Of a stretch of DNA of 64,000 nucleotides, positions 7,963 to 60,114 are shown piece after piece. The stretch lies in the IMG/VR virus record IMGVR_UViG_3300032236_001850, positions 240,392 through 304,391 of that record, one strand, 5' to 3'. The DNA is from a virus. The notes beneath the pieces were generated by a model that worked only from the letters and a program-made list of their open reading frames with translations, was not told the origin of the DNA and made no database searches. A program made the translations under genes and the position numbers. Each line of letters begins with the position of its first letter. Within the stretch, counting starts at the first letter, position 1.

Positions 7963-7970
7963 GATATATA
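7963..7970 (+). promoter_or_regulatory. Putative late promoter box GATATATA
   Basis: GATATATA lies between a terminator and the ATG at 7995 (24 bases between). The same box precedes many virion genes here and resembles the T4 late box TATAAATA read by gp55. Confidence 0.6.
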
Positions 7971-7994: not shown

Positions 7995-9491
7995 ATGAAA
8001 AGAGTATTAGATTTTAGTGGATATAGCAAAATATTCGAAGCAGATACACCACCTGCACCTGCACCAGCGGGAGGAGCAACACCAGCTCCAACAACAGGAA
8101 CAACACCTGCACCAGCGGGAGGAGCAACACAAGCTCCAGCAACGGGAACAACACCTGCACCAGCGGGAGGAGCAACACCTGCACCAGCAGGCGATAAAAA
8201 AGAAGCTGCTCCTGATAAAAAAGATGCCACTCCAGATAAAGCAAAATCATCCAATGCGCCAACAGCTGCCACATCAGTTGGGGATCAGCTATATAATGCT
8301 TTTATTGACATATATTTCATATTAGTTTCAGGTATAGATGGGGGATATCCAGACGTGGTTGCTGATCTTCAAAGTGTTTCACAACAAACAGATGCAACTA
8401 AAAAAGGTGATGCAATGGCAGATGCTCTTAATAAGGTTTCGCAAAAATTAAATGCTGATTATAAATCACAAATAGGTGGAGATGTTAAAGGATTTAGCGA
8501 CGATCTTAAAAAAGCATACACTACACTTGTTACTTCTGACGAGGGTAAAAAATCATTGGATGGTATTAACAAGAGAATAGACGATTCGATTAATAAATAT
8601 GTAACTGAACTTGCTGCTGAGCTTAAAAAAGCAAAAGCACCTATTAAGGAATCATTCCAAGCTTGGAGAGAATCTGAACAATTAAACGAGGGATTATTTG
8701 ATAAAAATCTATTTCCAGAAAGAAGACAAGAATTACTTAGCACCATAATAACTCCTAAAATGTCGCAATTTAAAACGATTGCTGACACCACGATGGATAG
8801 CGCTTACAAGCAAGCTGCTCAAACAGCATATGATGCAATGAGTAAGTTATCTGATGAATTATCCAAGGATGACACTTGGGACAAAATGAAGAGAAGAGAA
8901 AGAAAGGATAGATTAGAAGCTATTCCTGGTGATGTTGATAAGATACAATCTGCAATGAATGATGCTACAACTAAATTTACTGCTCAACTTAAGATAGACA
9001 AGGATGTGACTGATAGTCTTAAATCAGTTGATGATAAAGCTAAAGACATCAAATCAAAAGCAACGGAACTTGTTAATAAACAAGCTGCTGCTGAAGCTAA
9101 GAAAAAAGAAGAGGAAGAAAAGAAAAAAGGTGGTGATAAAAAAGAGGAAGATAAAAACGCTCCTAAAGAAATAAAATCGGGTAATATAGATAAAGATAAT
9201 CTTAAGAAAACTGGATCTAATTATCAAGCAATTAAAGACTTCCAAGGAAAACTTAATACAATTCTACCAGATAATCAGCAGATAAAAGCTGACGGTGGTT
9301 ACGGTAAAAATACAGAAGAAGCAATTAGAAGGGTTGCTAGACTTATAGGCGGTTCAACTGGTGAAGATCTAGTTAAGAGCACGGACGATGGTAAAAAACT
9401 AACACCAGAATTCCAAACAATGGTTGCTAATTGGATAGATCCAAAGGTGCAGGCAAAAATGAAAGATCTAGTAAGCGGAAAGACATCATAA
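7995..9491 (+). CDS. Putative virion-internal protein with capsid-targeting-like leader, Pro/Ala repeats and peptidoglycan-binding-like C-terminus
   Basis: 498 residues. The N-terminus MKRVLDFSGYSKIFE|A resembles T4 internal-protein leaders (MKTYQEFIAE) with an I-x-E cleavage site at residue 15. Residues ~21-67 are 16-residue Pro/Ala/Gly repeats, then a long helical region with a further L-N-E|G site at 230-232. Residues ~405-470 look like a peptidoglycan-binding domain 1: AIKDFQGKLN, then DGGYGKNTEEAIRRV. Lys/Glu-rich linkers separate the parts. Gene context (late promoter, head-like neighbours) supports a virion protein, perhaps packaged and processed by the prohead protease. The exact role is unknown. 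Confidence 0.6.
   Translation: MKRVLDFSGYSKIFEADTPPAPAPAGGATPAPTTGTTPAPAGGATQAPATGTTPAPAGGATPAPAGDKKEAAPDKKDATPDKAKSSNAPTAATSVGDQLYNAFIDIYFILVSGIDGGYPDVVADLQSVSQQTDATKKGDAMADALNKVSQKLNADYKSQIGGDVKGFSDDLKKAYTTLVTSDEGKKSLDGINKRIDDSINKYVTELAAELKKAKAPIKESFQAWRESEQLNEGLFDKNLFPERRQELLSTIITPKMSQFKTIADTTMDSAYKQAAQTAYDAMSKLSDELSKDDTWDKMKRRERKDRLEAIPGDVDKIQSAMNDATTKFTAQLKIDKDVTDSLKSVDDKAKDIKSKATELVNKQAAAEAKKKEEEEKKKGGDKKEEDKNAPKEIKSGNIDKDNLKKTGSNYQAIKDFQGKLNTILPDNQQIKADGGYGKNTEEAIRRVARLIGGSTGEDLVKSTDDGKKLTPEFQTMVANWIDPKVQAKMKDLVSGKTS
8059..8178 (+). repeat. 48-bp tandem repeat (2.5 copies) within the 7995 gene
   Basis: Units begin at 8059, 8107 and 8155 (last one partial), each starting CTGCACCAGCGGGAGGAGCA. 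The unit is 16 codons, so copy number can change without frame loss. It encodes a Pro/Ala/Gly/Thr linker. GC content is clearly above that of the neighbourhood. Confidence 0.85.
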
Positions 9492-52704: not shown

Positions 52705-52741
52705 AAAGCTTTCCTTGGATATATAAAGGAAAGCTTTTTTT
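52705..52741 (+). terminator. Rho-independent terminator with promoter box in its loop
   Basis: Perfect 12-bp stem AAAGCTTTCCTT / AAGGAAAGCTTT and T tract. The 9-base loop is GGATATATA, i.e. the late promoter box. Confidence 0.88.
52718..52725 (+). promoter_or_regulatory. Putative late promoter box inside terminator loop
   Basis: GATATATA forms the hairpin loop. The GTG start of the next gene lies 16 bases after it. Transcripts starting here would lose most of the 5' arm and so would not form the terminator. Confidence 0.6.
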
Positions 52742-53557
52742 GTGGACAAAATATTCAATTTTAATTTATTTATAGAAAATGATGGTGACTCAATTTTTGA
52801 AAAGAAAGTTGGAGCATTCTATCATGATGAATTAAATCCAATTTTCTGGAAAAAGAAAAAGGATAAAAATGGAAATATCGAATGGGTATTCGATCAGCGA
52901 GTTAGAAGAAAACTTTTAAGAATAGCTAACGATTTCTATGAAAAATACTCCGAATTGTTAAAAGGAAGAGTAATAAAGGACATCCAACTAACCGGATCCT
53001 TATCTAATTATAACTACACTAATTTCTCTGATCTTGATGTACATATCATTGTAAATCTTGATGGTATAGATGACGAGAATCCAAAAATACTTAAGACTGC
53101 CATTGATGGTATAAGATTTGTCTGGAATCTTAGACATAATATATCAATTAGAGGATATGACACCGAACTATATCTTCAGAGTGAGGATGAACCACATGAC
53201 TCATCCGGTCTTTTCTCACTATTAAATAATGAATGGATAAAGACACCAGTATTTTCACCGCCTGTAGTGGATGAGATGGATGTGAATAAAAAGTATGGAT
53301 CCATAGTTTTTGAGATAGACAAATTACAAACGAAATTAAGAGATCTTTCGGATCTTCCAAGTAATGCCAAGTCTTTATACAAAAGATGTATTAAACTTAA
53401 AGATAAGATCCAAAAAATGAGGAAAGAAAGCCTTTCTAGAGACGGTGAGATGTCAATTGGTAATCTTGTATTTAAAAAGCTAAGAAATGAGGGATATATA
53501 GAAAAATTAATAGATACCATATCTAAATCTTACGATAAAATTTACACTGAAAAATAA
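52742..53557 (+). CDS. Predicted nucleotidyltransferase with capsid-targeting-like leader
   Basis: GTG start. 271 residues. Residues 82-101 carry the polymerase-beta-type nucleotidyltransferase signature: G85-S86, then SDLDVH with D97 and D99 as metal ligands; DTELYLQ near 140 may supply the third acid. The N-terminus (FNFNLFIE|N and SIFE|K) resembles T4 Alt and internal-protein leaders with hydrophobic-x-Glu cleavage sites. C-terminal part is helical and basic. It opens the head-gene unit, so it may be packaged and injected; the acceptor (nucleotide, RNA or protein) is unknown. Confidence 0.65.
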   Translation: MDKIFNFNLFIENDGDSIFEKKVGAFYHDELNPIFWKKKKDKNGNIEWVFDQRVRRKLLRIANDFYEKYSELLKGRVIKDIQLTGSLSNYNYTNFSDLDVHIIVNLDGIDDENPKILKTAIDGIRFVWNLRHNISIRGYDTELYLQSEDEPHDSSGLFSLLNNEWIKTPVFSPPVVDEMDVNKKYGSIVFEIDKLQTKLRDLSDLPSNAKSLYKRCIKLKDKIQKMRKESLSRDGEMSIGNLVFKKLRNEGYIEKLIDTISKSYDKIYTEK

Positions 53558-53565
53558 TTTGAATT

Positions 53566-56349
53566 ATGAATATAATTTTACCTAAAGCTGGAAAATATAA
53601 CATGGGTGATGACTTTCCTATGATAAGTATTCCAACTGATATATCATCACTTAACCCAGAGGAAAAAACATTCGATGATTTTCAATGGTGGGCACAAACA
53701 AGTGAGTTCAAAAAGTGGATGGACAAAAATAAGAGAGAATGGCAAGCTGATTCTGAGGATATGTCTAAATATGGTGGTTCAATAACAGATATAATTAAGG
53801 AACATGTTGAATCATACATTCTTGATAATCAATTGAATGAATCTGATGTTCTTTCTTTTAATGAATTTGATACCATTAACGAGGCTGACGAGAATGCTCT
53901 TTCTGAGGATGCAAAAAAAGGTATTAAATTTCATTATGCTTACAATAAACTCAAATCAGAAGGAAAATTAAAAAATATAACAAATGTTGATGCAGATTTT
54001 CCTACTGGTGCTGAAAAAGCAGTTTTTATAAGTATGGAAGATCAGGAGACTAAAAAAAATATAGATGAGACATTGAAAGCCTTCAAAATGATAGGTTTAC
54101 AAAGCTCTTCTGAATCAAAAGTAAAAATAATTTCAGTTACTGAATCTCTACCTGGCGGAAAATTAGATCCTGATACAACTATGCAGGAACTTGTTGAGGG
54201 AATGTTAAAAACAGCTGGTGAATATGCTGCTATTGGTGTTGGTGTAGGTATAGCATGGGCGGTATTAAAAAGAGTTGGTTACGGGGTTAGCGCTGGATAT
54301 GTTCTTAAAAAAATAAAAGGCCTTGCTCCTGTAGCCAAGGAAGGCGAGGAAGTGGTAAAAACAACAGGGGCTTTAGCTAAAGCCGGTAAATATGTTAAGG
54401 GTCTTGCATCCGGAGGTATTAAAAAAGTTAAAGTTCTTGGTAGTGGATTGGTGGATCTTGCTCAATTTAAGAATATAAGAAATGCGGGGGTTGGTGCTTA
54501 TAAGGGTTTTACATCATCCTTTAAATTTACTAGAGGTCAATCGTCAGCAACAAGAATAGGAAAGGCTTTATTAAAGGGTAAAAATTTAGGTGCCGAGGGT
54601 GCTGTTAAAATAGCAACAGAAGCCGGTGCTAAGGGAGCTTCTAGATTTATCCCCTTTGTCGGCGAAGTTCTTTTAGCAATAGACGCCATTGGGTCAACTT
54701 TCAACTGGTTTGGTACAAATCAAGCACCAAAATGGGATGAAATTGAAGGAACTATTGCAACAGGTAAGGGTGGTAAAGAATTCGATCCTGGTAAAATAGC
54801 GGATGGTACTTCAATTACGATATGCTGGAGACAACCGGCAGGAACCGGTCTTGGTATCGCTGCAAGTTTTGCTTGGAATAATGATACAAGAACAACAGCC
54901 GAATTATTTAAGATTGGTAAGGGTAAGGATGGTGATTCCATATTTATATTAACTGCAATAAATTCTAAGGAATACCAAAAAGCTCTATCCGATCATGCAG
55001 TTACGTTAGTATCCATTAAGAATGGTCCTATAAATTCACAGAGTGGATTTTCAGCATTAAGAAGAATCGTTGATAATGAGGATATGGACGTTAAAGTAGC
55101 TTATTTAGATACTCCAGATAAGATTGCAAGTAGTTTTAATTTTATGGGTATATGTGACTGGAATCTTCTTATGCAATATTACGATCAGGCATCTGATCAG
55201 TATTTAATAACAGATAGTAATGCTCCAGAAACATACGAATATTACTATCAGACAGCAAGAAAGGATTATGTGAACGTTTCTGGTAAGCTTCTAAATAATG
55301 AAGAATTAGGTGCAAAAAGTATTACTGATATAGATGAAATATTCGCAGATTCTAATAAAAAATTAAATAATAAAAAGCCTGAGGAGAAAGAAACTGAAAA
55401 AAAGAAGGAAAAACATGTTGTTAATCCTGGAGATAATGGACCACCTAAATACGATGAAAAGAAGCAGGGTGCAACAGGATCTTCTGAGCCTAAGGTAAAT
55501 GATTCCGAAAATAACAAGGAACTTTGGATGGTTCCTATGATCTCTGAAGCATCTAATAGTGGTTTAGTTATTCGTAAGTTTTCTGAATTTGAGGATGTTC
55601 TTGAATATGTAAATACCATAGGTAAATACCCGGAACATATGAAAATTAACGAGAGTAAAGGTGATGATGTATTAAGACCGACCGCGGAGGAAGCATCAGG
55701 CCCTGCCAAACTAGCAGTATATGACGTTACAAGTATGCAATATGCAAACCCTGCAGATAAACAATATACACCAAATGCCTTCAAATACTTCATCATAGGT
55801 CCTGATGATTTTGATGCCAAAGTTGGATCCAGTATAGAGGTAGGTATTAGTACAGATGAGACCTTAATAGATCCTAGAAGAGGTGTTTATGAATACAAGG
55901 AAGAGGTTAAGAAGAAAGACGAGGAAGAAGGAAAAACGTCAACGAATCCTGAAGAGAATCCAAAACAAAATGACGAAGAATCTGGTGACGACCAAACAAA
56001 GCCTAGAAAGGATGATTACTTCATAACAGCAGATCCTGATGATATAAGCATTAAAAACAGAAAGAATGCTACAGTGATAAGGGATCATAATTTCAAGGGC
56101 GGTATAAACATTGTGGACGAATTCCTTACAGATAAGGAAAAAGAAGTTTTAGGAATACCTACATGGAAAGCAATAACATTAGCTAAAACATTCATGAATG
56201 GACAAGGTGAAGTTATAAAAGTTAAGCTTAAAAATAGATATGCTCCTATGTTTAATACTGTAAAAACATATGAAGTTAGGGATGGTGAAGCTTTCCAAAT
56301 TGCTAAAAAATTCGCTAAAGAGGTTGAAGATAGAATAAAATTTCAATAA
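53566..56349 (+). CDS. Large putative virion-internal protein with hydrophobic segments
   Basis: 927 residues. Residues ~86-115 contain three possible prohead-protease sites (LNE|S at 92, INE|A at 106, LSE|D at 114), so the first ~110 residues may be removed. Hydrophobic, Gly/Ala-rich stretches at ~216-245 (AAIGVGVGIAWAVLKRVGYGV) and ~360-382 (FIPFVGEVLLAIDAIGSTF) with a basic Gly/Lys region between could insert into membranes. The second half alternates globular blocks and Lys/Glu-rich linkers with a further INE|S near residue 701. No known family. Position directly before the prohead protease suggests a head-packaged ejection protein. Confidence 0.55.
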   Translation: MNIILPKAGKYNMGDDFPMISIPTDISSLNPEEKTFDDFQWWAQTSEFKKWMDKNKREWQADSEDMSKYGGSITDIIKEHVESYILDNQLNESDVLSFNEFDTINEADENALSEDAKKGIKFHYAYNKLKSEGKLKNITNVDADFPTGAEKAVFISMEDQETKKNIDETLKAFKMIGLQSSSESKVKIISVTESLPGGKLDPDTTMQELVEGMLKTAGEYAAIGVGVGIAWAVLKRVGYGVSAGYVLKKIKGLAPVAKEGEEVVKTTGALAKAGKYVKGLASGGIKKVKVLGSGLVDLAQFKNIRNAGVGAYKGFTSSFKFTRGQSSATRIGKALLKGKNLGAEGAVKIATEAGAKGASRFIPFVGEVLLAIDAIGSTFNWFGTNQAPKWDEIEGTIATGKGGKEFDPGKIADGTSITICWRQPAGTGLGIAASFAWNNDTRTTAELFKIGKGKDGDSIFILTAINSKEYQKALSDHAVTLVSIKNGPINSQSGFSALRRIVDNEDMDVKVAYLDTPDKIASSFNFMGICDWNLLMQYYDQASDQYLITDSNAPETYEYYYQTARKDYVNVSGKLLNNEELGAKSITDIDEIFADSNKKLNNKKPEEKETEKKKEKHVVNPGDNGPPKYDEKKQGATGSSEPKVNDSENNKELWMVPMISEASNSGLVIRKFSEFEDVLEYVNTIGKYPEHMKINESKGDDVLRPTAEEASGPAKLAVYDVTSMQYANPADKQYTPNAFKYFIIGPDDFDAKVGSSIEVGISTDETLIDPRRGVYEYKEEVKKKDEEEGKTSTNPEENPKQNDEESGDDQTKPRKDDYFITADPDDISIKNRKNATVIRDHNFKGGINIVDEFLTDKEKEVLGIPTWKAITLAKTFMNGQGEVIKVKLKNRYAPMFNTVKTYEVRDGEAFQIAKKFAKEVEDRIKFQ

Positions 56350-56407: not shown

Positions 56408-58372
56408 ATGTACAAAATGCCAACAACTAAAAAATTAAACGAAGAATTAGTTTTCATTCTAGAAAGACAATCATCCGTTCTTGAATCTTCAAGAAACGAT
56501 AATGATGATTATGTCCTTGAAGGTATTGCTGCTGTTTTCGGTAAAGAGAACAACAATAATAGAATATATGAAGAAGCTGAATATCTTCCTCACTTAAACT
56601 ATCTTAATGAGAAAATAGCTCAGAGAAGATTGGTTGGAGAATTGGATCATCCTGAAAAATTTGACGTTTCTCTTAAAAACATTTCCCATATAATCGAAAA
56701 ACTTGATTATGATAAAAATGGAAGAGAAATTAAAATTAAAGTTAGACTTTTAGATACACCAATGGGTCAGATAGCTAAAAATCTTGTTGATGCAGGAGTT
56801 CCTCTTTCTATTTCTTCCAGAGCAGCTGGTTCTGTTGGTAATGATAAAAAAGTTCAAATTAAAAAAATATTCACATATGACCTAGTTGCTGATCCTGGTT
56901 TTCAAGACGCACAACTAGAAAGAGTATATGAAAGCGCTGGTTATCATTTTAGTGATTTCTTCGAAATGAGAAATAAAAGTGTAACTAACGATCTACTTTG
57001 TGTAAATGAATCATTAGGTCTAAAAAATGATTCAGATGTGAAGATATATAAAGTTGAAAATAACGAAGAATTTAATAACCTCGTATCAAAATCAGATAAA
57101 AATAAGACGATCCTCATGGAGAATAATGAATTTGTGACTGCAGAAGAATTAAACCAATATTCTGTTTTCTTGAAAAAAGAGATGGAAGCAATGAATTCTA
57201 AAATTGCAGAAATTAAAGAACAAAAGCAAGTATTAACTGAATCTAGCTTTGAAGATAAAAATTCAAACCTTGAAGAAAGAGTTGCTAAATTAGAAAAATA
57301 TTCTGAGTATTTAGCTGAGAATTTAGATAATGCTATTAAGTATGGTGAATACCTTGCTGAAAACTTAGACGAGAGTATAAGTTATAGCAAATATTTAGCT
57401 GAAAACTTAGATAAGAATATTTCTTATTCTAAATATCTTGCTGAAAATGTTGACAAATCAATTTCTTATACTGAGTACGTTGCTGAATCAACAGATAAAG
57501 GTATAGAGTACACTAAATATCTTGCTGAGAAATTAGATCAGAACATTCAATACTCTGAGTACTTAGCAGAAAACTTAGACAAAGGTATTTCTTATTCTGA
57601 ATATCTTGGTGAGAACTTAGACAAAGGTATAGCTTACTCTGAGTACCTAGCAGAAAAATTAAATGATGGTATCGAGTATTCCGAATACCTTGCAGAGAAT
57701 CTTAACAAGAATATCCAATATTCCGATTACCTAGCAGAAAATGTTAATAAAGGTTTAGATTATTCTGATTACTTAGCAGAAAAATTGAAAAAATCAATCT
57801 CTTACAGTGAATATATAGCTGAGACAGTTAATACAACTAAATACAAAGCTACTGACTCATTAAGAGAAAGTGTAGATCTTTCAGCTTCAGCAGGATTAAA
57901 TGAATCAGGATTTGCTGGAGATTATACAGATCTTACAACAAGAATAGATAGTTTGATAGAATCAGTTAAAACACAAAAAACTGAGTCAAATATAAATGAA
58001 GCTTCTAAATCAATGAAGCAAACAGCCAACACACAAAAGGCAGACGAAGTTCTTAACGAAAATGAGAACAAAAACAAAACAGGTCTTAATTTTATTGACA
58101 CAATGCCTGAAGAATACACACAAGTTTGGGAATCACTTACTGAAGGACACAAGCAATCAATTATTGCTCAAAGTAACTTCTATAGATTAGATACACCTTA
58201 CCAAGTGAAAAACTTCTGGTCAACACGTCAATTAGGAACTGCACCAGTTGGAGTTCAAAAATTAGACGAGAGCGAAAATATCGCAATGCCTAATGCACAA
58301 ACAAGCGGTTATTCTAACGAATATATGAACGCTATTGCTGCTGCATTAGAGAAAAAATTTCAAACAAGATAA
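56408..58372 (+). CDS. Prohead protease (T4 gp21-like) fused to a coiled-coil scaffold domain
   Basis: 654 residues. Residues ~35-170 are a gp21-type serine protease: RLVGELDHPEKF with H81, and VPLSISSRAAGSV with the nucleophile Ser among 134-137. Residues ~295-480 are about 12 copies of a 14-residue unit (NLDKGISYSEYLAE consensus), two heptads each, so a coiled-coil rod. The C-terminal ~100 residues form a small domain (TMPEEYTQVWESLTEGH). T4 has separate protease (gp21) and core (gp22) genes; here both functions seem to be in one chain. LNE, INE-A and LNE-N sites in the chain suggest self-cleavage. The next gene is the capsid protein. Confidence 0.82.
   Translation: MYKMPTTKKLNEELVFILERQSSVLESSRNDNDDYVLEGIAAVFGKENNNNRIYEEAEYLPHLNYLNEKIAQRRLVGELDHPEKFDVSLKNISHIIEKLDYDKNGREIKIKVRLLDTPMGQIAKNLVDAGVPLSISSRAAGSVGNDKKVQIKKIFTYDLVADPGFQDAQLERVYESAGYHFSDFFEMRNKSVTNDLLCVNESLGLKNDSDVKIYKVENNEEFNNLVSKSDKNKTILMENNEFVTAEELNQYSVFLKKEMEAMNSKIAEIKEQKQVLTESSFEDKNSNLEERVAKLEKYSEYLAENLDNAIKYGEYLAENLDESISYSKYLAENLDKNISYSKYLAENVDKSISYTEYVAESTDKGIEYTKYLAEKLDQNIQYSEYLAENLDKGISYSEYLGENLDKGIAYSEYLAEKLNDGIEYSEYLAENLNKNIQYSDYLAENVNKGLDYSDYLAEKLKKSISYSEYIAETVNTTKYKATDSLRESVDLSASAGLNESGFAGDYTDLTTRIDSLIESVKTQKTESNINEASKSMKQTANTQKADEVLNENENKNKTGLNFIDTMPEEYTQVWESLTEGHKQSIIAQSNFYRLDTPYQVKNFWSTRQLGTAPVGVQKLDESENIAMPNAQTSGYSNEYMNAIAAALEKKFQTR
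57290..57830 (+). repeat. 42-bp (14-residue) repeat array, about 12 copies
   Basis: Encodes repeats of (N/K)-(L/V)-(D/N)-K-(G/S)-I-x-Y-(S/T)-(E/D/K)-Y-(L/V)-A-E. Codons vary freely between copies, so selection keeps the protein pattern. Confidence 0.88.
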
Positions 58373-58389: not shown

Positions 58390-60114
58390 ATGAAATTGAT
58401 TAACGAACAAGAAATCTACGATACATGGTCACCGCTTATCGAGAGCAAAGCTGGTATCACAGATGAAGGAAAAAAAGGGTGGTTAACTAAATATTGCCAC
58501 TATCACTCATTAAACGAGTCTGCTGGTGCTTATAACACTTTAGGTGTTGTAAATGGTATGGGTAACGTTGCTCCTCCTGCATTCCCAGGAATGAATATGG
58601 GTGGTACAACATTATCTACACAAGCTAATGCTGGTTTCTACAACACACAATGGCAAGGTTCAGGTGATAAATTCCCATCATTATTACCTTTAGCAATTCA
58701 AGTTGCTGCAAAAACTATCGGTTTCGACATCGTTCCGGTTATCCCTATGTCAGGTCCAACTGGTATCTTATCATACTTGGATTATGTTTATGCTGGTGGT
58801 AAAATTGCTGCTGCTGCTGGTACTGATGCTGCTTCTCAGTTAGCTAGTGCCCCATCAATGATCAAATTCCCAGTTTATCAGTCATCTACTGGTGCTACTG
58901 GTGCTACTGGTGCTACTGCAGGTACATTTACAGCTGGTGCTACTGGTAACATTGGAACATTAAACTTAACATTCATAGGTCTTTCTAGAATTGATGGTTT
59001 CCCAATCTTCCAAGTAACTGGTATGGCTGCTGGTTCTAACATTGCTAGCTATATTAACGGTACTCCTACTGTACTTACTAACTTTGGTTCTAGTGGTTTC
59101 TATACTGGTGCTACATATTCTAGTAACGGTTATACAGCTCAATTAGTTAAAGCTTTAGAGGATCACATCCAAGGTTTCTCTGGTGCTGGTTTTAATAATA
59201 CTGATGCTTGGCAAGGTCCTTACGTTGATGGTACTAAAACTTACAATCCTATGTTAAGAGGTGTTGGTGAGTCTACTTACTTCAACTCAATGGGTCTTTC
59301 GACTTTCACTAAATTCGTTGAAGCTGAGACATTCCAAGTAGCTGCTTCTGTTACAACAGAGCAAATACAAGACCTTAACAAACAATTCGGTATCGATGTT
59401 ATTTCAATGATCGAGAACGCATTGGTTAATGAGGTATCTCAAGCTATTAACAAACACATCTTAGCAAGAGCATTTGCTTTAGGTTGGTCAAATCACGTTT
59501 TATTCAACAGTGTTGAAAACCAAAACTTGAACTTAAACCTTGTGATCAACGGTTCTGCTGGTACAACATTCTCTTACATCAACAAAATTGATGCTAACGT
59601 TGCAATGGCAATTCCAGCTGGTCCTGCTTCAGGCGGTTATGAGAACTTATCAACTCTTCAAAGAAGATTATTCTCAAGAATCCTTGCAGCTGCAAACGTA
59701 GTAGCTAACAGAGGTAGAAGAGGTCCTGCTAACTTCATCGTTACTAACGCTGCTGTAGCAAGTGCACTTCAAGATATCTCTCAGTTCACTTTCGCTCCAT
59801 TCTCTAACACATTAACTCAAAACAATGGTACTTTATACCCTGTAGGTTCTCTTGCTGGTATGACTGTTTACGTTGATCAGAATATGCAGTATTCTGATAC
59901 GAGAGTATTAGTTGGAAGAAAAGGTGGTGATGATGAACCAGGATTAAAATTCATGCCTTACATGATGGCAGAGTCTATTCAGACAATCTCTGAAGGTACT
60001 ATGTCACCTAAGATCGCAGTTAAATCTAGATATGCTTTAGTAGAAGCTGGTTTCTTACCAGAAACTATGTACTTAACATTCTTTGTTAACGTACCTGCTG
60101 GTGGTTTAGCATAA
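58390..60114 (+). CDS. Major capsid protein precursor (T4 gp23-like)
   Basis: 574 residues (T4 gp23: 521). The leader ends at SLNE|SAG (E43), the protease consensus, as in T4 where gp23 loses 65 residues. Then PLAIQVAAKTIGFDIVPVIPMSGPTGILSYLDYVY (quoted in parts: FDIVPVIPMSGPTG) corresponds to gp23's start of the mature HK97-type fold. An inserted Gly/Ala/Thr-rich part (~168-260) replaces the T4 insertion domain. The end (RYALVEAGFLPETMYLTFF) is the C-terminal strand. Codon choice is more uniform than in neighbours, as expected of the most expressed gene. A terminator follows. Confidence 0.92.
   Translation: MKLINEQEIYDTWSPLIESKAGITDEGKKGWLTKYCHYHSLNESAGAYNTLGVVNGMGNVAPPAFPGMNMGGTTLSTQANAGFYNTQWQGSGDKFPSLLPLAIQVAAKTIGFDIVPVIPMSGPTGILSYLDYVYAGGKIAAAAGTDAASQLASAPSMIKFPVYQSSTGATGATGATAGTFTAGATGNIGTLNLTFIGLSRIDGFPIFQVTGMAAGSNIASYINGTPTVLTNFGSSGFYTGATYSSNGYTAQLVKALEDHIQGFSGAGFNNTDAWQGPYVDGTKTYNPMLRGVGESTYFNSMGLSTFTKFVEAETFQVAASVTTEQIQDLNKQFGIDVISMIENALVNEVSQAINKHILARAFALGWSNHVLFNSVENQNLNLNLVINGSAGTTFSYINKIDANVAMAIPAGPASGGYENLSTLQRRLFSRILAAANVVANRGRRGPANFIVTNAAVASALQDISQFTFAPFSNTLTQNNGTLYPVGSLAGMTVYVDQNMQYSDTRVLVGRKGGDDEPGLKFMPYMMAESIQTISEGTMSPKIAVKSRYALVEAGFLPETMYLTFFVNVPAGGLA

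Follow-up and report, generated by a model that had tools for sequence, protein, structure and literature searches.

We know of few packaged host-modifying enzymes, and T4 Alt is the prototype. Alt and the internal proteins IPI-III of T4 bear a capsid-targeting sequence (CTS), are packaged and are ejected. For T4 IPIII, ten residues suffice for head targeting; positions 4 and 7 determine targeting, and positions 8 and 10 determine processing (PMC9026906). The T4 protease gp21 cleaves after L/I-X-E (PMC9026906). Pol-beta nucleotidyltransferases (NTases) were also reported in DNA-delivered polyvalent conflict proteins, and transfer of a nucleoside monophosphate to protein was proposed for them (Iyer et al. 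2017, PMC5512222). These NTases belong to firmicute mobile elements, where they are minimal domains fused to ArdC-N, whereas the phage NTase described here combines a T4-type leader with a helical C-terminal domain. In the part of the open-licence literature that was covered, no description of a two-domain phage NTase family was found. The gene lies in a stretch of 64,000 nucleotides (the window), taken from a record of 434,509 bases; the record is that of a giant phage, and its head genes are of the T4 type.

The NTase gene and its predicted late-type unit

The features of the locus are listed below by window position. Relatives in which the NTase gene stands ahead of the protease/scaffold and capsid genes are called the head cluster.

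52705-52741, + strand: terminator-like hairpin, arms 52705-52716 and 52726-52737, with a T-run; the promoter element is in the loop
52718-52725, + strand: GATATATA late-promoter-like element
52742-53557, + strand: NTase gene, GTG start, 271 aa; match to PHROG 36119 over residues 18-266, E=1.2e-35
52742-52801, + strand: residues 1-20, a predicted leader for capsid targeting; F7/F10 form the aromatic pair, and the cut is predicted to follow I18-F19-E20 (alignment, model)
52994-53038, + strand: catalytic signature G85-S86-x10-D97-x-D99 (alignment)
53165-53167, + strand: third catalytic acid E142 (alignment and model)
53273-53545, + strand: helical C-terminal domain (residues 178-268), in which R227, N241, F244, K245 and R248 are invariant (alignment and model)
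53566-56349, + strand: 927-aa protein of no known family, 8 bp 3' of the NTase gene, in the same direction
56408-58372, + strand: gp21-type prohead protease (Peptidase_S77) fused to an L-A-E-repeat scaffold, with its own GATATATA
58390-60114, + strand: major capsid protein (Gp23), predicted cleavage site S-L-N-E|S-A at residues 40-45
Window positions 7963, 20292, 25467, 36244, 38408, 42133, 49947, 52718, 56387 and 60200: copies of GATATATA

The hairpin before the NTase gene had a z of -4.2, and the stretch 52705-52741 was read as a nested terminator-like and promoter-like element. The GATATATA element before the NTase was kept in every head-cluster relative, even amid diverged flanks. When the hairpin was compared with its equivalents in L009-L036, the stem varied among relatives and the loop motif stayed. 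Of the 13 copies of GATATATA in the window, 10 lay between genes, on the coding strand and at a distance of 1-29 nt 5' of a gene. Neck, sheath, portal and protease genes were among those preceded by the element. Across six related contigs we counted 49 occurrences of GGATATATA-N10-24-ATG, compared to 2 for the reversed control. These results made GATATATA a candidate for the late-promoter element in this clade of phages. Two other motifs were rejected. The T4 late-promoter octamer TATAAATA was found 9 times in the window against 13.8 expected, with none 5' of the NTase on its strand. In other lineages, [GAT]ATAAATA gave a weak excess (12/36 vs 74/402, p=0.046) and was set aside.

Since the hairpin and GATATATA sit directly 5' of the gene, the NTase opens its head unit, as the initial annotation had stated. 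This holds for the unit in question; the portal gene (42161) belongs to another one. By its promoter the unit is predicted to be late-type, and the 927-aa gene, the protease/scaffold and the capsid protein follow the NTase. In the scaffold part (window 57290-57830), we counted about a dozen repeats, each 14 residues long and bearing Y-L-A-E-[NK]. These are predicted to be regularly spaced cleavage sites. The S-L-N-E|S-A of the capsid protein was identical among the head-cluster relatives read, and the L-A-E repeats and L-N-E|S together gave the phage's own calibration for protease sites. In the case of the 927-aa neighbour, Pfam, PHROG and HEPN gave no match, and the predicted structure was unusable (pLDDT 37.5). 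It diverged fast, with 34-43% where the capsid protein keeps about 70% or more, and another unassigned protein replaced it in L037-L040, L077 and L078. A HEPN/MNT toxin-antitoxin pair was considered and rejected; the neighbours are an exonuclease and the 927-aa protein without HEPN, and the NTase is two-domain and not a minimal MNT.

The gene order was also compared with two other explanations. The position ahead of the protease/scaffold and capsid genes could mean that the NTase is a head-assembly protein, packaged or core-associated, whose enzyme works inside the prohead and not on the host. We regard this as very improbable, because other lineages place the NTase far from head genes and it is fused to other enzyme-like domains. 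The second explanation is an unpackaged intracellular enzyme of nucleic-acid or nucleotide metabolism, which would lie between an exonuclease and the head genes by chance and whose N-terminal extension would be neutral or a protein-interaction tail. The genes 5' of the NTase are UvdE-like and PolB-exonuclease-like, and the cyanophage and Cr30 relatives adjoin DNA polymerase, the cyanophage members having no shared leader. However, the hairpin and the late-type promoter cut the NTase off from the 5' genes in every head-cluster relative. The leader is also kept at the functional CTS positions and is common to unrelated proteins of the same phage. The unpackaged enzyme was thus judged quite unlikely.

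Family, active site and fold of the NTase

The NTase reading frame and start region were kept in relatives, with identity up to 92%. PHROG 36119 is the same family and gives no function; the leader and the late head-unit context are described here. Relatives were carried by 45 phage records, which covered 635-735 kb megaphages, Prevotella Lak phages, Maribacter phages, cyanophages and Caulobacter phage Cr30, and IMG/VR gave at least 595 matches to the family. In about 85,000 bacterial and archaeal genomes, six contigs matched, some with phage-like neighbours, and the plasmid search gave zero matches. Because of these few cellular contigs and the absence of plasmid matches, the PHROG 36119 NTases apparently form a large, phage-specific family.

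Family profiles gave weak results. Pfam NTP_transf_2 matched the window NTase weakly (E=0.016, below the cut-off), and it matched 53 of the 57 family members at E<0.1. Weak Pfam matches were also obtained for Polbeta and MTPAP-like_central in 36-38 of the 57 members and for SidM_N in 34 of them. PADLOC gave a single weak match (PDC-S09, E=0.0028), NCBIfam matched nothing in the NTase, and Rfam matched nothing around the locus. A Nudix-like gene recurred a few genes from the NTase in separate lineages (L001, L080, L081, L085, L094). Some relatives were fused to other modules (L105, L109, L110, L089, L073 and L006). The fusion partner was CTP_transf_like with DUF5661 in L105 and a PARP/KptA-like ART by Pfam in L109. 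By eye, it was ADP-ribosyltransferase-like in L110 and a ParB-like C-terminus in L089.

The active site was conserved throughout the alignment. The GS...DxD signature reported in the initial annotation was confirmed, with G85, S86, D97 and D99 invariant in 57/57 aligned NTases. The same was true of the third catalytic acid, E142, whose absence had been named as grounds for giving up the earlier proposal. In addition, H101, H132, S159, W165 and P169 were invariant in the 57-protein alignment, as were the five residues of the helical domain. The AlphaFold2 model was confident (pLDDT 85.5, pTM 0.71). In the model, the DxD begins strand 98-104, E142 (in T-E-L-Y-L) lies on strand 139-147, and a C-terminal helical bundle follows. 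By alignment and model, 52742-53557 encodes a Pol-beta-superfamily NTase with a complete predicted active site.

The comparison with NTase folds, which had been suggested earlier as a check, was run with Foldseek. The best PDB matches were all nucleotidyltransferases, namely AAD(9), CdnC, ANT(4') and AadA; they were weak (best E=1.6e-3) and did not fix the substrate. The likeness to the aminoglycoside nucleotidyltransferases AAD(9), ANT(4') and AadA consisted of the NTase core and the C-terminal helices. However, the identity was 11-13%, other C-terminal residues are conserved in those enzymes, and the phage NTase is predicted to be a late gene. In the case of the family profile, the best solved-sequence match was the DrrA AMPylation domain, again weak (E=0.0035) and not fixing the substrate. 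The GS-x10-DxD spacing of this N-terminal domain of DrrA/SidM is identical to that of the phage NTase, but the match is confined to the NTase core.

These matches bear on a third explanation, in which the NTase is packaged and acts on RNA or a small molecule, either in RNA-end repair or tagging (RlaP- or CCA-like) or as a modifier of nucleotide signals or small molecules (ANT-like). The Polbeta and MTPAP-like_central matches, the aminoglycoside nucleotidyltransferases and CdnC as best fold matches, and the invariant basic residues of the helical domain are consistent with it. However, RlaP and CCA-adding enzymes had no family match among the Pfam families listed for the 57 members, and the tRNA gene search within the 64-kb window found none. 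A protein-AMPylase domain was the best solved-sequence match, and an ADP-ribosyltransferase-like fusion also points away from RNA and small molecules. We consider such a substrate unlikely, although it is the most credible of the three alternatives. Because of the DrrA-like profile match and the fusions to ADP-ribosyltransferase-like domains in L109 and L110, a protein target is slightly favoured.

The N-terminal leader

The N-terminus had been described earlier as a capsid-targeting leader, and the results agreed with this. Residues 1-22 of the NTase were disordered in the AlphaFold2 model (pLDDT<50). In the family alignment, position 7 was F/Y in 41/53 and position 10 was F/W in 37/53; position 11 was often L/I, and [LIV]-x-E stood at about 18-20. 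The pattern aromatic/aliphatic-x2-aromatic-x1-3-E was found in 27/61 NTase clusters, compared to 9.6% of control N-termini, which were length-matched and taken from other genes of the same contigs. In every head-cluster relative, [LIV]xE sat 3-7 residues ahead of the conserved F/Y of the fold. The excess of the pattern over the control and the [LIV]xE before the fold in all head-cluster relatives indicated a CTS-type leader beyond chance. Across all lineages the excess of [LIV]xE was modest (38/63 vs 0.37), and NTase relatives are non-independent samples. Compared with T4 IPIII, the NTase leader keeps mainly the aromatic pair and [LIV]-x-E, which match the targeting and processing determinants. 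The aromatic pair and the cut site are closer together in IPIII than in the NTase leader.

The leader was not uniform in the family. The megaphage relative L006 starts with MLKYNSFIKE and has a long N-terminal extension that opens with a CTS-like leader. The leader was essentially absent in L052, L060, L062 and L103. In the case of L048-L058, the called TTG starts run through a terminator-like stretch, and the real products probably begin at the fold, without an N-terminal leader.

The leader was then compared with the N-termini of other proteins encoded by this phage. With a profile that had been trained on leader sequences picked by eye, the NTase being held out, the NTase ranked 14th of 236 genes; the background consisted of sampled stretches of the phage genome. 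GATATATA preceded 9 of the 14 top-scoring genes and 19 of the 222 others. The top-scoring genes encoded unrelated proteins, mostly without a known family, with one CHAP and one OmpA among them. We observed that the leader M-x-[KR]-I-x-x-F-x-x-F-I-x-E was common to otherwise unrelated proteins of this phage, many with their own GATATATA. The following leader-bearing proteins, one of which has a CHAP domain, are candidate packaged proteins.

Window: 7995-9491
L117: 7339-10684 and 18358-19179
L118: 1730-3992 and 12663-13349
L120: 10468-11339
L025: 3261-3911 and 5576-6538

Other lineages showed local leaders of their own. The NTase of Maribacter phage Molly carries MNLKTLVET, which is also on several other Molly genes (p=0.001). 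With the predicted cut marked, the leader reads MNLKTLVE|T in the Maribacter phages Molly and Colly and MRKFSQLLE|D in Caulobacter phage Cr30. In marine relatives the NTase leader is FK-x-[FY]-[FY]-E, and neighbours are alike, e.g. MRTFKEYFEQQ and MKNFKLYFEQY. A local leader on the NTase was also found in L043, L061, L066, L072 and L101. In the local-leader test against other lineages, 7 of 46 gave p<0.05, with a combined p=2.5e-4. At head-cluster loci the test gave no significant same-locus match, and their leader genes lie elsewhere. The cyanophage members showed no shared leader in this test.

Proposed packaging, injection and target

We propose that the NTase is a late-made, packaged and host-acting enzyme with a T4-like leader that is injected with the DNA, and we give this reading a probability of about 0.6. 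The leader, the processing motif, the promoter and the leaders common to other proteins strongly suggest packaging and injection at the level of sequence; once packaged, the NTase is probably injected. We infer cleavage, packaging, injection, catalysis and target as follows. The NTase would be expressed late from the GATATATA promoter alongside the head genes. The F7/F10 aromatic pair would carry it into the prohead core, like the T4 capsid-targeting sequence. It would be trimmed after I-F-E20 by the gp21-type protease, whose gene lies two genes 3'. The mature NTase of about 251 residues, starting at K21, would be retained in the head and delivered to the next cell with the DNA. There, early in infection, it would modify a host molecule, most likely a protein, by transferring a nucleoside monophosphate to it. 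Packaging is probably a property of some lineages, because the NTase of the cyanophage members adjoins DNA polymerase and shows no shared leader, and some members are leaderless.

The initial annotation had likened the NTase to the injection of T4 Alt. The comparison held for the logic of a packaged host-modifying transferase and failed for homology. Alt is an ADP-ribosyltransferase, whereas the phage protein is a Pol-beta nucleotidyltransferase, and an ART catalytic domain gave no match in the window NTase, which has the NTase fold instead. The likeness to Alt and IPI-III consists of the short leader, the aromatic i/i+3 pair, the L/I-x-E site, a gp21-type protease in the same phage and, by prediction from the promoter element, late-type expression. 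Alt is a host-modifying transferase, as is proposed for the phage NTase.

A broader proposal is made tentatively. The family may be a phage-specific group of injected protein-modifying (AMPylating/UMPylating) NTases, acting as 'Alt-equivalents' in T4-like and giant phage heads, each addressed to the capsid in the dialect of the phage that carries it. If true, the family, with its hundreds of IMG/VR members, would extend the takeover of the host in its first minute by a new chemistry. By means of the leader 'dialects' and GATATATA, candidates for packaging may be listed from sequence for uncultured giant phages, so that the question of what giant phages inject would become testable.
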